This document shows, in pieces, positions 33,941-38,774 of a DNA stretch of 39,608 bases (the stretch's first letter is position 1; every line of letters begins with the position of its first letter). The stretch is from Candidatus Nomurabacteria bacterium (GTDB lineage Bacteria > Patescibacteriota > Minisyncoccia > Phycocordibacterales > UBA9973), in assembly GCA_029288805.1 (NCBI GenBank), contig JARIGO010000005.1, positions 1-39,608 on the forward strand, given 5' to 3'. The notes beneath the pieces are model-generated. The model was not told the origin of the DNA. It did not search any database and saw only the letters and a program-made list of their open reading frames with translations. Made by a program: the position numbers and the translations under genes.

Positions 33941-34819
33941 TTATGAGGTGCCTTTTAATTTTGACTCACAATATGATCGAACCATTTTGTATGTTTCTGA
34001 ATTCTCAACATCAGAAGCATGATCTTCAATGAAACCTTCTTTTTCTTCATACACATGGTAGAAAGTTCCTAGGGTCTTTGCCAAGGCCTTAAGATACCCT
34101 GCCCCTAAACCATTACTTTGAGCATACAGGTAGTAAGTCTCAAGCTGGGTTTTTATTTGTGATAATGCATCAGCAAGATATGGGTGCTCATTAATTTTTT
34201 CTCGCTCTTTATTTTTATGCAATTTTGCTAACTCAAGAACTGTTTCCTTGGTGGTACACAAAATAGTTCTGAAAACATTCATTGAACCTTTATAGTTTTC
34301 AGTATCGACATATTTAACGAGAGATTGTTTAGCTTTTTCAATATCGTTGTTCCAAATAGAATCAAGCTTATTTTTTAGGGTTACGTAATCATTTGAAAAA
34401 GTAACATCAATACCTAAACCAAGATATTCAGGATTTTCTGCATCTTCATCTGGTAAGAACTCAATAACACAGTCAACCTTTCTCAAAAAATCATCTGGAT
34501 CTGCAGTCGGAAAAGCTTCTGCCTTATTTGCCATCCATTCACCACAAAATTGGTCAATTATAATTCCTTCGAAAATATTACTAATTTGTTTATTTTTCTT
34601 TTCGAAATCATTATTATTTTCTTCCCATTGAAACTTTAATTTTTCCGTAAGCTCTACTTCCCTTTTTATTTCTTCAGGATCAAAACCTGGTTGCTTAAGG
34701 AAGTCTTCAGCATTTGGCTGATATCGTTTCTTTTGATCTTCAAAAAATTTTTCCTGAGAATTAATAAGATAATCCTCTTGCATTGACTCAAACGATATAT
34801 TATTGCCTATTCCTTCCAT
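33941..34819 (-). CDS. Hypothetical cytosolic protein, possible restriction-nuclease-like core
   Basis: 292 residues, highly charged, helical at both ends. The centre reads GEWMANKAEAFPTADPDDFLRKVDCVIEF...LGLGIDVTFSND: an acidic residue, then β-strands with D and ID, which is suggestive of a PD-(D/E)XK fold but lacks a clear ExK. That fold is a weak inference. TATAAT ends 8 nt before the ATG. It lies beside tRNA-Gly at the left end of the accessory island. Confidence 0.6.
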   Translation of the reverse strand: MEGIGNNISFESMQEDYLINSQEKFFEDQKKRYQPNAEDFLKQPGFDPEEIKREVELTEKLKFQWEENNNDFEKKNKQISNIFEGIIIDQFCGEWMANKAEAFPTADPDDFLRKVDCVIEFLPDEDAENPEYLGLGIDVTFSNDYVTLKNKLDSIWNNDIEKAKQSLVKYVDTENYKGSMNVFRTILCTTKETVLELAKLHKNKEREKINEHPYLADALSQIKTQLETYYLYAQSNGLGAGYLKALAKTLGTFYHVYEEKEGFIEDHASDVENSETYKMVRSYCESKLKGTS

Positions 34820-34846
34820 ATATTTTTATTATATAGAAAACTCTTG

Positions 34847-34917
34847 TGCGGGTACAGGGAATCGAACCCTGGTCTACACATTGGAAGTGTGTCATTCTAC
34901 CACTAAACTATACCCGC
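34847..34917 (-). tRNA. tRNA-Gly, anticodon TCC
   Basis: Complete cloverleaf: acceptor GCGGGTA/TACCCGC, D-arm with GTTTAGTGGTAGAAT, anticodon stem ACACA/TGTGT around CTTCCAA (anticodon TCC, reads GGA), T-arm CAGGG-TTCGATT-CCCTG, discriminator A. The 3' CCA is not encoded. A TATAAT box at 34933-34938 (minus) lies 15 nt upstream. Confidence 0.96.
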
Positions 34918-34969
34918 TTTATCCCTATTTCAATTATATTATTTTCTCGGAATTTTCCGATTGTCGGGA

Positions 34970-35113
34970 CTAAGGGATCACATTAGAGCCACCAACCGTT
35001 TTAAGGGCATAATTTCCTAGTGATACCTTGGTTATGTTACAACCGGTAATGCCAATACTATATACAATGGTGAACCTAAAGGCAAATGGTGAAGCATCGA
35101 GTTTATTACTGCT
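34970..35113 (-). pseudogene. Decayed gene tail R1 (47 codons, no start)
   Basis: Minus-strand frame open from after a stop at 35114-35116 to TAG at 34970. It encodes a protein-like tail that begins SSNKLDASPFAFRFTIVYS and ends SLGNYALKTVGGSNVIP, with no ATG. It aligns at DNA level over about 110 nt with R2 (36432-36545), whose translation keeps NKL near the start and KVSL..TV.SSNV.P at the end. It is therefore the 3' remnant of a gene, not noise. Immediately after the stop comes TCCCGACAA, shared with R2 and with the 3' end of tRNA-Pro. Confidence 0.6.
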
Positions 35114-35140
35114 TTACCCAAGTCCTGGTAGAATTAAGCA

Positions 35141-35743
35141 ATGGGAGGAGAAAAGGAATTTAAGGATAAATCGACGTTCATGTTAGGCTATCTGGCTGTT
35201 ATCATTGCCCTGCTTCAGATCAAAGACAGCCTGCGGAACATAATAATAAACGTGTTCGACCTACAGTTCTCTTTGTATGTGGCACTACTGGTCTTTATAT
35301 TTTTCTTGATACTGATAATGTATCTATTCGCGCTTACCTACTTCAAGTTTTGGGAAGAGAAAACAAGACCTGTATTGAAAACAATAAAACAAACCGCGGA
35401 AATCCTATTTAATTTTTCCTTAGTATCTCCAATCCTATTTGGGTTATTAATTGTTAGCAGTTATATCATTAAGACTCTGCATAATTTTTCTCCAACAACA
35501 GCGTTTGCAGTCAACCAGGGATTCAGCTTTATTACAACTATGGTTATAGCGGTGTTCTCTATAAACACTTTTTATTCCCTGAAAAAAGCCGGGGCATCCT
35601 CCAAAAATATAAGCAATGAGGAAAAAGAGGAAATTAGGAAAAGGTTTGCCAAGCAGCAGAGCTCTGTAATAAATAGGACGGCGGTGTTATTAGGAGCTAT
35701 TACTTCAGTTCTTACCATTATTGTTGAGATATTCGCTAAATAA
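35141..35743 (+). CDS. Hypothetical multi-pass membrane protein
   Basis: 200 residues with about five TM helices (about 13-30, 42-68, 88-112, 124-145, 178-198), a charged loop (KNISNEEKEEIRKRFAKQQ) and a cytoplasmic lysine-rich N-terminus. No family recognised. TAGAAT (35129-35134) ends 6 nt before the ATG, and the ATG is followed by GGGAGGAG inside the coding sequence. It lies between decayed tails R1 and R2, so it is probably accessory DNA. Confidence 0.7.
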   Translation: MGGEKEFKDKSTFMLGYLAVIIALLQIKDSLRNIIINVFDLQFSLYVALLVFIFFLILIMYLFALTYFKFWEEKTRPVLKTIKQTAEILFNFSLVSPILFGLLIVSSYIIKTLHNFSPTTAFAVNQGFSFITTMVIAVFSINTFYSLKKAGASSKNISNEEKEEIRKRFAKQQSSVINRTAVLLGAITSVLTIIVEIFAK

Positions 35744-35806
35744 ATTATGGATGAAGCCGTTATCAGAAACATGAGGAAACGATTTTAGGCAATAGTCCCC
35801 AAACAT

Positions 35807-35833
35807 AAAAAGCCTGATCAGGGATCAGACTTT
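35807..35833 (-). terminator. Terminator of the lipoprotein gene
   Basis: Stem CTGATC/GATCAG (35814-35819, 35823-35828) extended by A-T pairs past one mismatch, followed on the minus strand by five T. Confidence 0.75.
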
Positions 35834-35848
35834 GAGTAAAGAGTGCTT

Positions 35849-36193
35849 TTATTTTAAGCGTTTTTGGTTAAAGAAATCATCGACAAGAATAGTAACTTTC
35901 TTACCGACTAAAACAGTATCGAAGACTTTCTTTTCCACATTAAATGTATCAACACATGATTCCCCTTCTGCAGAAGTACTTTTGACAACCACTGACCAGC
36001 TTTCCGGTACGGAAACCTGCATGATAACCGGTACGTAAACAATGGCTTTACCAGTTGATACTGCACCAGCACCAACCCTTTTTTCCATGTGGGCGGTGTC
36101 GTGTACCTTATTGATAACCAGGGCTGACTGAGACTGTGTACAAGATGTGAAAAACAGTGCCGAAAGAAACCCAAAAAGAAATAACTTTTTCAT
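35849..36193 (-). CDS. Small lipoprotein
   Basis: 114 residues from the ATG at 36193. Lipoprotein signal MKKLFLFGFLSALFFTSC, lipobox FTSC, Cys18. The mature part is β-like (AIVYVPVIMQVSVPESWSVVV) with no known family. A longer frame starting at 36286 is rejected: its extra N-terminus is encoded by the hairpin leader and would bury the signal peptide. Like the lipoprotein at 6476-6961 it uses a TTGACA/TATNNT promoter and a long leader, unlike its neighbours. Confidence 0.7.
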   Translation of the reverse strand: MKKLFLFGFLSALFFTSCTQSQSALVINKVHDTAHMEKRVGAGAVSTGKAIVYVPVIMQVSVPESWSVVVKSTSAEGESCVDTFNVEKKVFDTVLVGKKVTILVDDFFNQKRLK

Positions 36194-36195
36194 AT

Positions 36196-36251
36196 ATTTT
36201 ATTGGTTTACCGCAAAGCCCTATAAAAGGATTTCTGGAAAACCAATAAAAT
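36196..36251 (-). promoter_or_regulatory. Long hairpin in the lipoprotein 5' leader
   Basis: Perfect 13-bp inverted repeat: ATTTTATTGGTTT (36196-36208) and AAACCAATAAAAT (36239-36251), with a 30-nt loop. In the transcript the 3' arm ends 2 nt before the ATG, so the folded leader would cover the ribosome-binding region. It could act as a thermosensor, a protein-binding switch or a stabiliser. Confidence 0.6.
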
Positions 36252-36274
36252 GTTGTGAAGAACTTTATGTTTAT

Positions 36275-36303
36275 ATAATATAACATTTTTTATAAAATGT
36301 CAA
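36275..36303 (-). promoter_or_regulatory. Sigma70-type promoter of the lipoprotein gene
   Basis: Minus strand: TTGACA (36298-36303), 17-nt spacer, TATTAT (36275-36280). Start near 36268, leader about 75 nt. Confidence 0.75.
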
Positions 36304-36359
36304 GTTAGATTACTAGTTCCGACATTAGTATTATCCGTCTGATTTTTTAAATGTCCATG

Positions 36360-36430
36360 CAAAATAAGGCCGTAATAAGCCTTATTTTGTATAGATCAAT
36401 ATTGATTTTGAGTACTTTCTCCTTGTCGGG
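36360..36430. repeat. Copy B1 of the tRNA-Pro downstream block
   Basis: About 71 nt, roughly 93% identical by eye to 38635-38707. It includes the terminator stem (AAAATAAGGC/GCCTTATTTT), CAATATT-GATTTTGAG and CTTGTCGGGA, the last being the tail of tRNA-Pro. Here it abuts the decayed gene tail R2 instead of a tRNA. Confidence 0.85.
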
Positions 36431-36431
36431 A

Positions 36432-36545
36432 CTAAGGGAGCACATTAGAACTTTTAACCGTTGTAAGGGGGAAAATTCTTAGTGATACTTTGGTGTTATG
36501 CTGCGACCAGTAATGCCGTTACTATGTACAATAATCAATTATTTA
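36432..36545 (-). pseudogene. Decayed gene tail R2, frameshifted
   Basis: Minus-strand relative of R1. One frame reads IIVHSNGITGRSIT and a shifted one KVSLRIFPLTTVKSSNVLP then TAG at 36432-36434. The stop is followed by TCCCGACAAGGAG, as after tRNA-Pro. Upstream coding is lost. Similarity to R1 is about 80% by eye over 110 nt. Confidence 0.55.
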
Positions 36546-36559
36546 GCAATTGCAGTTTA

Positions 36560-37459
36560 TTAAATTTTAACGTTAAGCCTTTTAAATACTATCTTTCTGT
36601 AAACACTTGGAGATTTTTCAATCAAATATTTAAGTAAGTTAGGAACCCATGACTCAGTAATAGCAAAGGTCGCAACAACGAAACACAGCGACAAGAAATT
36701 GCTTTTCCCTATTTTACTTAAATAGCCATGGTGAATATTTAATATTAATAAAAGGATATATATTAATAGTATTACTATGCAATAGAATACGACTGACCAT
36801 CGTTTTGCCTTATAGCCAAAAAAGCTTATTTCATCAGGTTCATTAAAAGCAAACTTAAATAATTGCTCATTTTCTTTTTCAACTTGCTTGCTGTTAAATT
36901 TATTAACCAGAGAAAAGTTTCGGGTAGCGATATCTTCTTTTTTTGTTCTATAGCCTGAAATAATAAGTAGAAGAAGAATTAGAATACGATCTATATCTTT
37001 CACAGTAGCAGGTAGCGTCTTCCGCCAAAACCTCAGCTTTTCCCTCACAATAAACCCCCTAATTGGCTTAGTGGGTAGCCGATGCGCATTTCTTAACTTT
37101 ATAAGAATATCCTTAGGAATTATCTCTTTATCCTGATAGTAAAATTTATCTTCTCTCTCGTTGTAAGAAAAGTCTTGATGAATATCTATATCTACGGGAA
37201 CATTTATGTCATCTGTTGTTCCCAAACTTACTCCGTCCTCTACCTTTTTACCATAACTTGCACTGAGCCAAACTTTTTTTATCTCATCGCTTTGAATTGA
37301 GCCGCTACTACTCAGACCAACTTTGTACATGGAAACATACCCATCCGGATAGTCGTTATCCTCAAGCACACTAAAGCCGACTCCGTCTATGAAATCTACC
37401 GGGCTAAGGAAATTGGAAAATGGCACTTCGAATTTTCTTCTAAAATCACTGGCAGTCAT
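36560..37459 (-). CDS. Hypothetical membrane protein
   Basis: 299 residues. A soluble N-terminal 155 residues (WLSASYGKKVEDGVSLGTTDDINVPVDIDIHQDFSYNE, then IPKDILIKLRNAHRLP) precedes three membrane helices: about 162-175, 222-243 and 254-270. No family recognised. TATATT ends exactly 6 nt before the ATG. The gene is AT-rich compared with the housekeeping part of the window and sits inside the tRNA-bounded accessory island; the large cytosolic domain plus C-terminal helices is a layout seen in some defence effectors, but nothing more specific supports that. Confidence 0.65.
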   Translation of the reverse strand: MTASDFRRKFEVPFSNFLSPVDFIDGVGFSVLEDNDYPDGYVSMYKVGLSSSGSIQSDEIKKVWLSASYGKKVEDGVSLGTTDDINVPVDIDIHQDFSYNEREDKFYYQDKEIIPKDILIKLRNAHRLPTKPIRGFIVREKLRFWRKTLPATVKDIDRILILLLLIISGYRTKKEDIATRNFSLVNKFNSKQVEKENEQLFKFAFNEPDEISFFGYKAKRWSVVFYCIVILLIYILLLILNIHHGYLSKIGKSNFLSLCFVVATFAITESWVPNLLKYLIEKSPSVYRKIVFKRLNVKI

Positions 37460-37551
37460 TACCTGAATATATCATACGAATTATTAAATATTTATTAAAA
37501 GCATTTAATTAGCTGCTTGCAAATACTGTCAAATAAGGTATTGTGCGCAAC

Positions 37552-37722
37552 ATGCAGATAAAACAGGAGCGATTAGAGGCGTTCAAGGAACTGTACAAGA
37601 AACAGTTTGATGTAGAGCTCTCAAACCCGGAGGCGTACGACAAGGCGCGCAAGGTGCTTTCCTATGCAAAGCTCTGCCTGAAGCCGTTTGAGAAGGTTGG
37701 TGTCAGGGAGTTTGAGGTATAG
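37552..37722 (+). CDS. Small charged protein (56 aa), GC-richer than its surroundings
   Basis: Begins MQIKQERLEAFKELYKKQFD and ends VGVREFEV; helical, with the pattern R-L-x-F-K-x-L-Y-x-x-x-F-x-x-E-L-S-x-x-E-A. From memory, similar small proteins recur in CPR genomes beside mobile or conjugative genes; no function assigned. TTGCAA-16-TATTGT precedes it and TATTGT ends 7 nt before the ATG. Codons are clearly GC-richer than neighbouring island genes. A terminator follows. Confidence 0.65.
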   Translation: MQIKQERLEAFKELYKKQFDVELSNPEAYDKARKVLSYAKLCLKPFEKVGVREFEV

Positions 37723-37754
37723 ACTGTACGCGTAGTCAGACACAAACGGTATAT

Positions 37755-37782
37755 AAAATCCCCTCTAACAAAGGGGGTTTTA
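37755..37782 (+). terminator. Intrinsic terminator
   Basis: AAAATCCCC / GGGGGTTTT stem (one T-G pair) with a 9-nt loop, then TATATTTTT. Serves the 56-aa ORF and faces the convergent 103-aa gene. Confidence 0.8.
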
Positions 37783-37787
37783 TATTT

Positions 37788-38099
37788 TTATTGATGCCCT
37801 ATCCTAATTATTCTATACCCATCTTCTGATGCTGGGTAAATAAATTGACCTATTGCGGGCGGACTCGTTATCTCTTGATTTACACCATCAACCTCATACC
37901 CTTTAGAAATAAGGAACTGCTTAATGCTTTCCGCAAAAATAATTGCCTCTCCATCTCCGAGCGCAGCGAAAATTTTAAATTTTTCATTCTTGCTAATACT
38001 TCCTAAGAGATGTGATTTAAAGGCTTCATCCACTTCTCTTTGAGTTTTTCCAAATGAAATATTGTTGTTTCCAAAAATATTGTTTTGATTTATATCCAT
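37788..38099 (-). CDS. Hypothetical protein sharing an Asn-rich N-terminus with its upstream neighbour
   Basis: 103 residues. N-terminus MDINQNNIFGNNNISFG, then a soluble α/β part (EAFKSHLLGSISKNEKFKIFAALGDGEAIIFAESIKQFLISKGYEVDGV). No TM helix. It starts 2 nt after the stop of the 59-aa gene, whose N-terminus MNINQKNVYGSNS is clearly related, so the two products probably act together or assemble through the shared segment. No family recognised. Confidence 0.6.
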   Translation of the reverse strand: MDINQNNIFGNNNISFGKTQREVDEAFKSHLLGSISKNEKFKIFAALGDGEAIIFAESIKQFLISKGYEVDGVNQEITSPPAIGQFIYPASEDGYRIIRIGHQ

Positions 38100-38101
38100 A
38101 T

Positions 38102-38281
38102 TTATAAGTGTATGTGCATTAAAATTTTTAATAGATCATACAAGCCGGCTGCAATAATTGAGGCCAAAATCCCGCTAAAAAAACCTTGTAGTCCTTGTTT
38201 AGTAGAAAATACATTTTTTAAAATCACACTGTTGTTATGTACACTGTTTGAACCATATACATTTTTTTGATTAATATTCAT
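38102..38281 (-). CDS. Small membrane protein (59 aa), partner of the 103-aa protein
   Basis: Asn-rich N-terminus (MNINQKNVYGSNSVHNNS), then KNVFSTKQGLQGFF and one hydrophobic helix (SGILASIIAAGLYDLLKIL), so a soluble segment tethered by a C-terminal TM. First gene of a two-gene unit (2-nt gap). A GATAAT sequence ends 7 nt before the ATG. Pairing of a soluble and a membrane protein with a shared N-terminal motif suggests a small effector or toxin-type module; this is inference. Confidence 0.55.
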   Translation of the reverse strand: MNINQKNVYGSNSVHNNSVILKNVFSTKQGLQGFFSGILASIIAAGLYDLLKILMHIHL

Positions 38282-38318
38282 TATCGTAATTATCGTTACA
38301 GAATCTTTTAATAAAGAA

Positions 38319-38345
38319 CGGGGGCGCTTCAGCCCCCGCTTTTTG
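38319..38345. terminator. Strong GC-rich terminator
   Basis: 7-bp stem CGGGGGC/GCCCCCG with a 6-nt loop, then CTTTTTG on plus. On minus it follows the decayed frame at 38358-38477. There is no intact plus-strand gene just upstream, so its transcript is uncertain. Confidence 0.75.
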
Positions 38346-38357
38346 TATTCAAATGAG

Positions 38358-38477
38358 TCAGTTTATTCTTGAACTTTCAATATTTTTAGCGTAGGTCGAA
38401 GATGGTATGGTTTGAGTTGTATCAGGCTGAATCTCCGACAATAAATGTCTGATTTGAATTGTTCTAGAGCTTATTAA
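38358..38477 (-). pseudogene. Possible remnant of a gene C-terminus (39 codons, no start)
   Basis: The minus-strand frame, open after a TAG, reads about IRHLLSEIQPDTTQTIPSS... and ends ...NIESSRIN before TGA at 38358. It has protein-like composition and is followed by the terminator at 38319-38345, the order expected for a real gene's tail, but no upstream coding survives. The rest of 38478-38630 is AT-rich and I see only a short GTTCGATTCCC string at 38593-38603 resembling a tRNA T-loop. Confidence 0.3.
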
Positions 38478-38634
38478 CTATATTATACCACATTTTTTCA
38501 TTTTAAGCTATCATTCTTACCTAATTGATAGATATTCATTTACAATTAGACCTGACAAACTTTTATACCTTATATATTAAAGATATTTCCAGTTCGATTC
38601 CCTTTGTCCTACCCCTATTTTTTTGACACAAAAA

Positions 38635-38701
38635 CAAAATAAGGCCGTAATAAGCCTTATTTTGTATGAATCAATATTTGATTTTGAGCACTCTCTCCTT
38701 G
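38635..38701 (-). terminator. tRNA-Pro downstream block and terminator (copy B2)
   Basis: Read on minus after the tRNA: AAGGAGAGAGTGCTC, AT-rich spacer, then stem AAAATAAGGC / GCCTTATTTT and GTTTTTG. An intrinsic terminator for tRNA-Pro; duplicated as B1 at 36360-36430. Confidence 0.8.
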
Positions 38702-38774
38702 TCGGGATGCAGGGATTCGAACCCTGAGTCACCTCTTCCCAAAAGAGGCATGTTAGCCGTTACACCACATCCCG
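38702..38774 (-). tRNA. tRNA-Pro, anticodon TGG
   Basis: Cloverleaf: acceptor CGGGATG/CATCCCG, D-arm GTGTAACGGCTAAC, anticodon stem CCTCT/AGAGG around TTTGGGA (anticodon TGG, reads CCA), T-arm CAGGG-TTCGAAT-CCCTG, discriminator A, CCA not encoded (ACAAGG follows). Confidence 0.96.

Follow-up and report, generated by a model that had tools for sequence, protein, structure and literature searches.

Two stacked integrase-less inserts at a tRNA-Pro insertion hotspot in a Nomurabacteria genome, and an apparently undescribed structured element at tRNA ends of its relatives

Patescibacteria are tiny bacteria of the symbiont type with very small genomes, and the ways in which they gain genes are poorly understood. 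In the genome of one Candidatus Nomurabacteria bacterium (G000, 680 kb in 26 contigs), two tRNA genes that are close neighbors in relatives lie 3783 bp apart (tRNA coordinates). The sequence analyzed, here called the window, is contig C8 of this genome, a stretch of 39,608 nucleotides. Its tRNA-Pro (TGG) gene (38701..38774, minus strand; identified by ARAGORN and Rfam) is intact, and the 3' end of this gene is the insertion target. The tRNA-Gly (TCC) gene, also on the minus strand (34846..34917), is the ancestral neighbor of tRNA-Pro, based on ARAGORN and on the loci of relatives.

The locus was located in 60 relatives by using a 121-aa gene upstream of tRNA-Pro. In eight relatives, a same-strand tRNA-Gly(tcc) lies 21, 27, 39, 50, 53, 63, 68 or 181 bp downstream of tRNA-Pro. 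The relative with the 181-bp gap carries a small element, and the remaining seven gaps, of 21-68 bp, correspond to the empty sites that the original prediction had proposed to look for. In one distant relative, the two tRNAs are 590 bp apart. Joining the flanks in the window at the core sequence described below, with both inserts taken out, yields a spacer of 45 bp (34918..34962, minus strand), which we presume to be the original one. The gaps of the two nearest sisters measure 1170 bp (G003) and 1057 bp (G001), and cassette turnover, a second check proposed originally, is evident from their genes: G003 carries an unknown 244-aa protein and G001 an APH/kinase-like protein, each unrelated to the cargo in the window, and neither insert has ends of the type found there. 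Given the short gaps in relatives and the differing content in sisters, we conclude that this is a site of recurrent gain. The tRNA-Pro end is a genuine insertion hotspot, occupied in the window by a stack of two units without integrases, an arrangement that varies a known type.

Some further observations concern the sisters. In both G003 (L007:2000) and G001 (L008:1333), an ATG codon directly follows the tRNA-Pro 3' end (CCCGAC, then ATG), and the genes that begin there are unrelated; an mRNA freed by tRNA 3' processing in these organisms would be leaderless. Homologues of the G003 cassette gene occur in 7 of 397 genomes, with a tRNA nearby at just one of the seven loci, which does not support placement of cassette genes behind tRNAs as a general rule. 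On the far side of tRNA-Gly(TCC), a 292-aa ORF in the window (33941-34819, minus strand) begins 26 nt past the tRNA, and its position is occupied by other genes in G001 and G003.

The boundaries of the inserts are marked by a sequence shared with the tRNA. The window has exactly three copies of the pattern TCCCT-N3-TCCCGACAA (34961, 36423 and 38699); by simple arithmetic, about 0.0003 occurrences of 14 fixed bases would be expected by chance in a sequence of this size. The copy at 38699 is the 3' end of tRNA-Pro and corresponds to core 1 (TCCCTGCATCCCGACAA, 38699..38715), which is attL-like. Core 2 (TCCCTTAGTCCCGACAA, 36423..36439) and core 3 (TCCCTTAGTCCCGACAA, 34961..34977), the latter forming the junction with the original spacer, are likewise on the minus strand. 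On that strand, insert E1 (36423..38698, about 2.3 kb), which relatives lack, lies between cores 1 and 2, and insert E2 (34961..36422, about 1.5 kb) lies between cores 2 and 3. Their GC contents, 34.6% for E1 and 36.8% for E2, are below that of the surroundings (42.9 +/- 2.5% in 2-kb windows over the first 34 kb).

E1 and E2 have common ends, of about 80 bp on the left and about 110 bp on the right, all read on the minus strand. The right end of E1, called R2 (36423..36532), terminates in core 2, and that of E2, called R1 (34961..35068), terminates in core 3. R1 and R2 agree at about 80% of some 110 aligned nucleotides; their local alignment score is 108, and 300 shuffles reached no more than 30. 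In the ungapped block, 63 of 79 nucleotides are identical. The left end of E1 (38635..38700) is the tRNA downstream block, with a terminator-like hairpin, and the left end of E2 (36360..36439) is a near-copy of the tRNA-Pro 3' flank that also has such a hairpin; 36360-36439 and 38635-38715 are 90% identical (score 119, shuffle maximum 31). The original prediction was therefore correct that R1 and R2 resemble each other, that both share a pattern with the tRNA-Pro 3' end, and that R2 runs on into the tRNA-Pro downstream block. What R1 and R2 have in common with the tRNA amounts to only nine contiguous bases plus TCCCT. Aligned with the tRNA alone, R1 scores 21, which is within the shuffle range and not significant; the match gains weight because R1 is identical with R2 there. 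Shuffled sequences fold as well as R1 and R2, which show no attC-like structure. The interiors of E1 and E2 have no further long repeat in common.

E1 contains ORFs of 59 aa (38102..38281, minus strand; no confident Pfam match), 103 aa (37788..38099, minus; no family match), 59 aa (37543..37722, plus; no confident match) and 299 aa (36560..37459, minus), the last with hydrophobic segments near its C-terminus. E2 contains a 115-aa ORF with a lipoprotein-type N-terminus (MKKLFLFGFLSALFFTSC; 35849..36196, minus; no confident family) and a 200-aa membrane protein (35141..35743, plus). No cargo protein tested has a confident family match, and defence family models matched none of the window proteins tested. 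Of 247 genomes in the order, 4 have a homologue of the 299-aa protein, none of these genomes being from its own family in that sample, and 2 have distant homologues of the 200-aa protein. Neither protein has viral relatives, and the 299-aa protein has no relative in plasmids. One of the 200-aa homologues (L092) begins 11 nt past tRNA-Gln, and the other is in a tRNA-Ala locus beside an AAA ATPase. By locus, the homologue at L090 sits downstream of tRNA-Glu; that at L095 neighbors a BglII-type enzyme, a LexA-fused methylase and AbiTii; that at L096 neighbors a recombinase zinc-ribbon protein; and that at L099 neighbors an AAA ATPase adjoining a HEPN protein. The neighbors at L095, L096 and L099 look like defence or mobile genes. 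The membrane proteins and lipoproteins carried by E1 and E2 may be accessory and possibly defence-related, the latter being a guess from the neighbors.

Several smaller features of the cargo and its surroundings are recorded here. At L096:9208-10154, the recombinase zinc-ribbon gene, which adjoins the 299-aa homologue, has a 3' coding end that overlaps an opposite-strand tRNA-Glu. The 103-aa and 59-aa ORFs at 37788-38099 and 38102-38281 have similar N-termini (M-x-INQ-x-N-x-x-G-x-N), and their starts, MDINQNNIFGNNN and MNINQKNVYGSNS, look as if paralogous N-termini had been placed on different bodies. The promoter and hairpin leader upstream of the lipoprotein gene (36182-36310, minus strand) have a 74% copy at G000:C22:93614-93745, and contig C18 of the same genome has a short promoter-like match to this leader (G000:C18:16882-16911); a shared regulatory leader is possible. 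At 38576-38625 on the plus strand, TTCCAGTTCGATTCCCTTTGTCCTACC resembles a plus-strand tRNA 3' end. It is identical at 11 of 12 positions to the inverted tRNA-Pro T-arm, about 100 nt behind tRNA-Pro, and its acceptor part matches neither tRNA-Pro nor any other tRNA compared.

We consider it probable that two small non-autonomous integrative units entered the tRNA-Pro 3' end, one after the other. Each unit would combine the copied tRNA 3' end (core TCCCGACAA) with a terminator-like block on the left and a conserved 110-bp arm on the right. Two successive recombinations at core TCCCGACAA would have installed them. Each left block would restore the tRNA-Pro end and leave the tRNA intact, while the arm plus core would stay behind as the far boundary, giving the order tRNA-Pro, E1, R2, E2, R1, original spacer, tRNA-Gly. 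Support comes from the common ends, the unrelated interiors, the intact tRNA, the short spacer in insert-free relatives, the differing sister content and the low GC. The proposal that cassette-like units were inserted repeatedly at a tRNA 3' end thus holds up, given the relatives without inserts and the other genes in sisters.

We infer that the recombinase acts in trans and, by analogy with other tRNA islands, is of the tyrosine type. The integrase sought under the original prediction did not turn up: no recombinase is encoded among the ORFs of E1 and E2, and the incomplete assembly of this genome has no match to PF00589 or PF00239. Absence from the assembly carries little weight, because the Xer-type recombinase of the sisters is also unmatched there. 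This recombinase, recognized by a Pfam match, is encoded in G001 a few genes beyond the tRNA-Pro locus, and the equivalent neighborhood of G003 contains a similar gene. The window contig stops short of the corresponding position, and the assembly may therefore simply lack Xer. With different cargo in each of three sister species and two stacked integrase-less units in one of them, the locus offers a concrete place to search for the recombinase.

The main rival explanation invokes a single ancestral insertion at tRNA-Pro: homologous recombination would have duplicated it, and one of the two interiors would later have been replaced, so that the ends are common by descent. This would fit the broadly similar divergence of both ends (90% identity on the left, 80% on the right), as expected from one old duplication, as well as the failure to find a recombinase in the units or the assembly. 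However, E1 and E2 retain no other long common stretch in their interiors, and the gap content differs in two sister species, from which it follows that acquisition at the tRNA-Pro site is recurrent. We regard this explanation as unlikely.

The original prediction took R1 and R2 to be decayed relatives of one gene tail with the same C-terminal pattern, that is, what is left of the 3' end of a single protein gene overlapping a tRNA-like site. R1 does contain an open frame of 47 codons, and the stop at CCTTAG is common to both copies. In the frame encoding KVSL..TV..SNV.P, however, differences between R1 and R2 are distributed 5/4/4 over codon positions 1/2/3, the nine changed codons comprise eight non-synonymous and one synonymous, and R2 has a 2-nt insertion upstream relative to R1. 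The shared pattern is thus mere DNA similarity in one frame, which shows no sign of selection. The search for an intact parent gene likewise yielded no homologue: 147 family genomes gave only two marginal matches to the R1 tail (E about 0.04-0.05), and a phage collection gave no credible match. This reading is very unlikely, and we regard both R1 and R2 as noncoding ends of elements.

Searches for the same ends elsewhere were negative. An order-wide search with the R2 junction DNA produced only short, weak matches outside the genome itself. Ends like those of E1 and E2 were found in no other genome, whether among 397 genomes of the order, in two viral pattern scans or in one pattern scan of genome contigs. 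The core pattern gave no match in the two viral scans; its 19 matches in the genome-contig scan are unrelated, and none is at a tRNA end. Mobility of the units is accordingly putative.

Islander-type islands are genomic islands integrated in tRNA or tmRNA genes (PMC4383910). As in such islands, the tRNA is regenerated at one end of the inserts, a displaced tRNA 3' fragment lies at the other, insert-free relatives exist, and cargo is horizontally distributed. Of the features by which these islands are recognized, E1 and E2 have the intact tRNA, the displaced 3' copy (9 nt plus TCCCT) and an uninterrupted site in relatives, but no integrase; they also differ in being only 1.5-2.3 kb long, in being stacked as two units, and in the short, imperfect displaced fragment. 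Tandem integration is known for the integrative mobilizable element SGI1 (PMC2297512). SGI1 tandems also place successive units at one target with a common core, whereas the interiors of E1 and E2 differ and mobility genes are absent. Integron cassette arrays are similar in having small gene-bearing units in a row, a fixed acceptor site and a common end sequence; unlike in such arrays, an attC-like fold is absent from R1 and R2, and no integrase of the integron type turned up (no PF00589 match in the incomplete assembly). Tycheposons and other tRNA-targeted satellites likewise use tRNA 3' ends as targets and exchange cargo; a recombinase or replication genes of their own distinguish them from E1 and E2.

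The more surprising result is a structured tRNA-end element, apparently undescribed, in relatives. A search for duplicated tRNA 3' ends revealed units 100-200 bp long and devoid of genes, located behind tRNA genes of relatives (in L117-L216; for example, L120:1420-1870, L194:1116-1600 and L208:1330-1580). A first covariance model, built from three units with loops shortened, gave 78 matches in 29 of 60 relatives. Of 67 matches examined, 52 lie at most 250 nt downstream of a same-strand tRNA, and five more apparently follow tmRNA (two ARAGORN calls, three by eye). The arms of the units match the tRNA that they follow: the inverted T-arm match to the adjacent tRNA is 10.5, against 6.5 with shuffled tRNAs (maximum 7.3), the inverted acceptor match is 7.2 against 4.6, and the direct 3' copy is 12.5 against 5.4; among 52 copies, 39 reach a score of at least 9. 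The core stems (P2/P3) are paired in 98.2% of cells, compared with 17-47% in slid controls, and both-side changes occur at 12 of 12 core pairs, figures that are favored by an alignment fitted to the structure. A second model detected the family in at least 35 of 380 genomes across the phylum (E <= 1e-4), a lower bound because ten candidates per genome were scored. No Rfam family matches the units, and a limited search of the open-access literature found no description of them. A pattern match to the element core on viral contig L217 gave no model match and is attributed to chance.

The element looks as if it is mobile or spreading with tailored arms. Units are repeated in tandem at L194 (three), L208 (two, near-exact) and L191 (two). 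The cores behind tRNA-Lys and tRNA-Leu in G021 are 99% identical, and the arms of each follow its own tRNA. Of 56 units, 17 have their nearest neighbor within their own genome, where 3.4 would be expected (maximum 13). Co-evolution with the tRNA plus gene conversion is an alternative. Near-identical cores with arms matched to each tRNA demand either a target-copying mechanism or strong co-evolution with tRNAs, and a structured tRNA-end element would be a new kind of sequence.

It is very unlikely that E1 and E2 belong to this family as degenerate members that carry cargo: the parts come in the same overall order (tRNA end, terminator hairpin, insert, tRNA-end copy), about 100 nt behind tRNA-Pro there is an inverted stretch resembling a T-arm (11/12), and in G010 a family unit fills the tRNA-Pro/tRNA-Gly gap, but the covariance model is negative in the window, at the own-genome tRNA loci examined and in G000, folding of R1 and R2 does not exceed that of shuffles, and the acceptor part beside the T-arm-like stretch mismatches tRNA-Pro. 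R1 and R2 are not members of the family. A broader proposal, that tRNA and tmRNA 3' ends throughout the phylum accept undescribed small structured mobile units that gain, at every new site, arms copied from the recipient tRNA (inverted acceptor and T-arm, direct 3' copy), in tandem arrays and sometimes with genes, and that E1 and E2 are gene-bearing derivatives, seems to us decidedly doubtful.

Elsewhere in the same genome, the tRNA-Asn gene at L040 (G000:C7, 29421-29492, minus strand) is followed by a terminator and then, about 70 nt downstream of the gene, by a 13-nt repeat of the tRNA 3' end, possibly a remnant of a tRNA-end unit.
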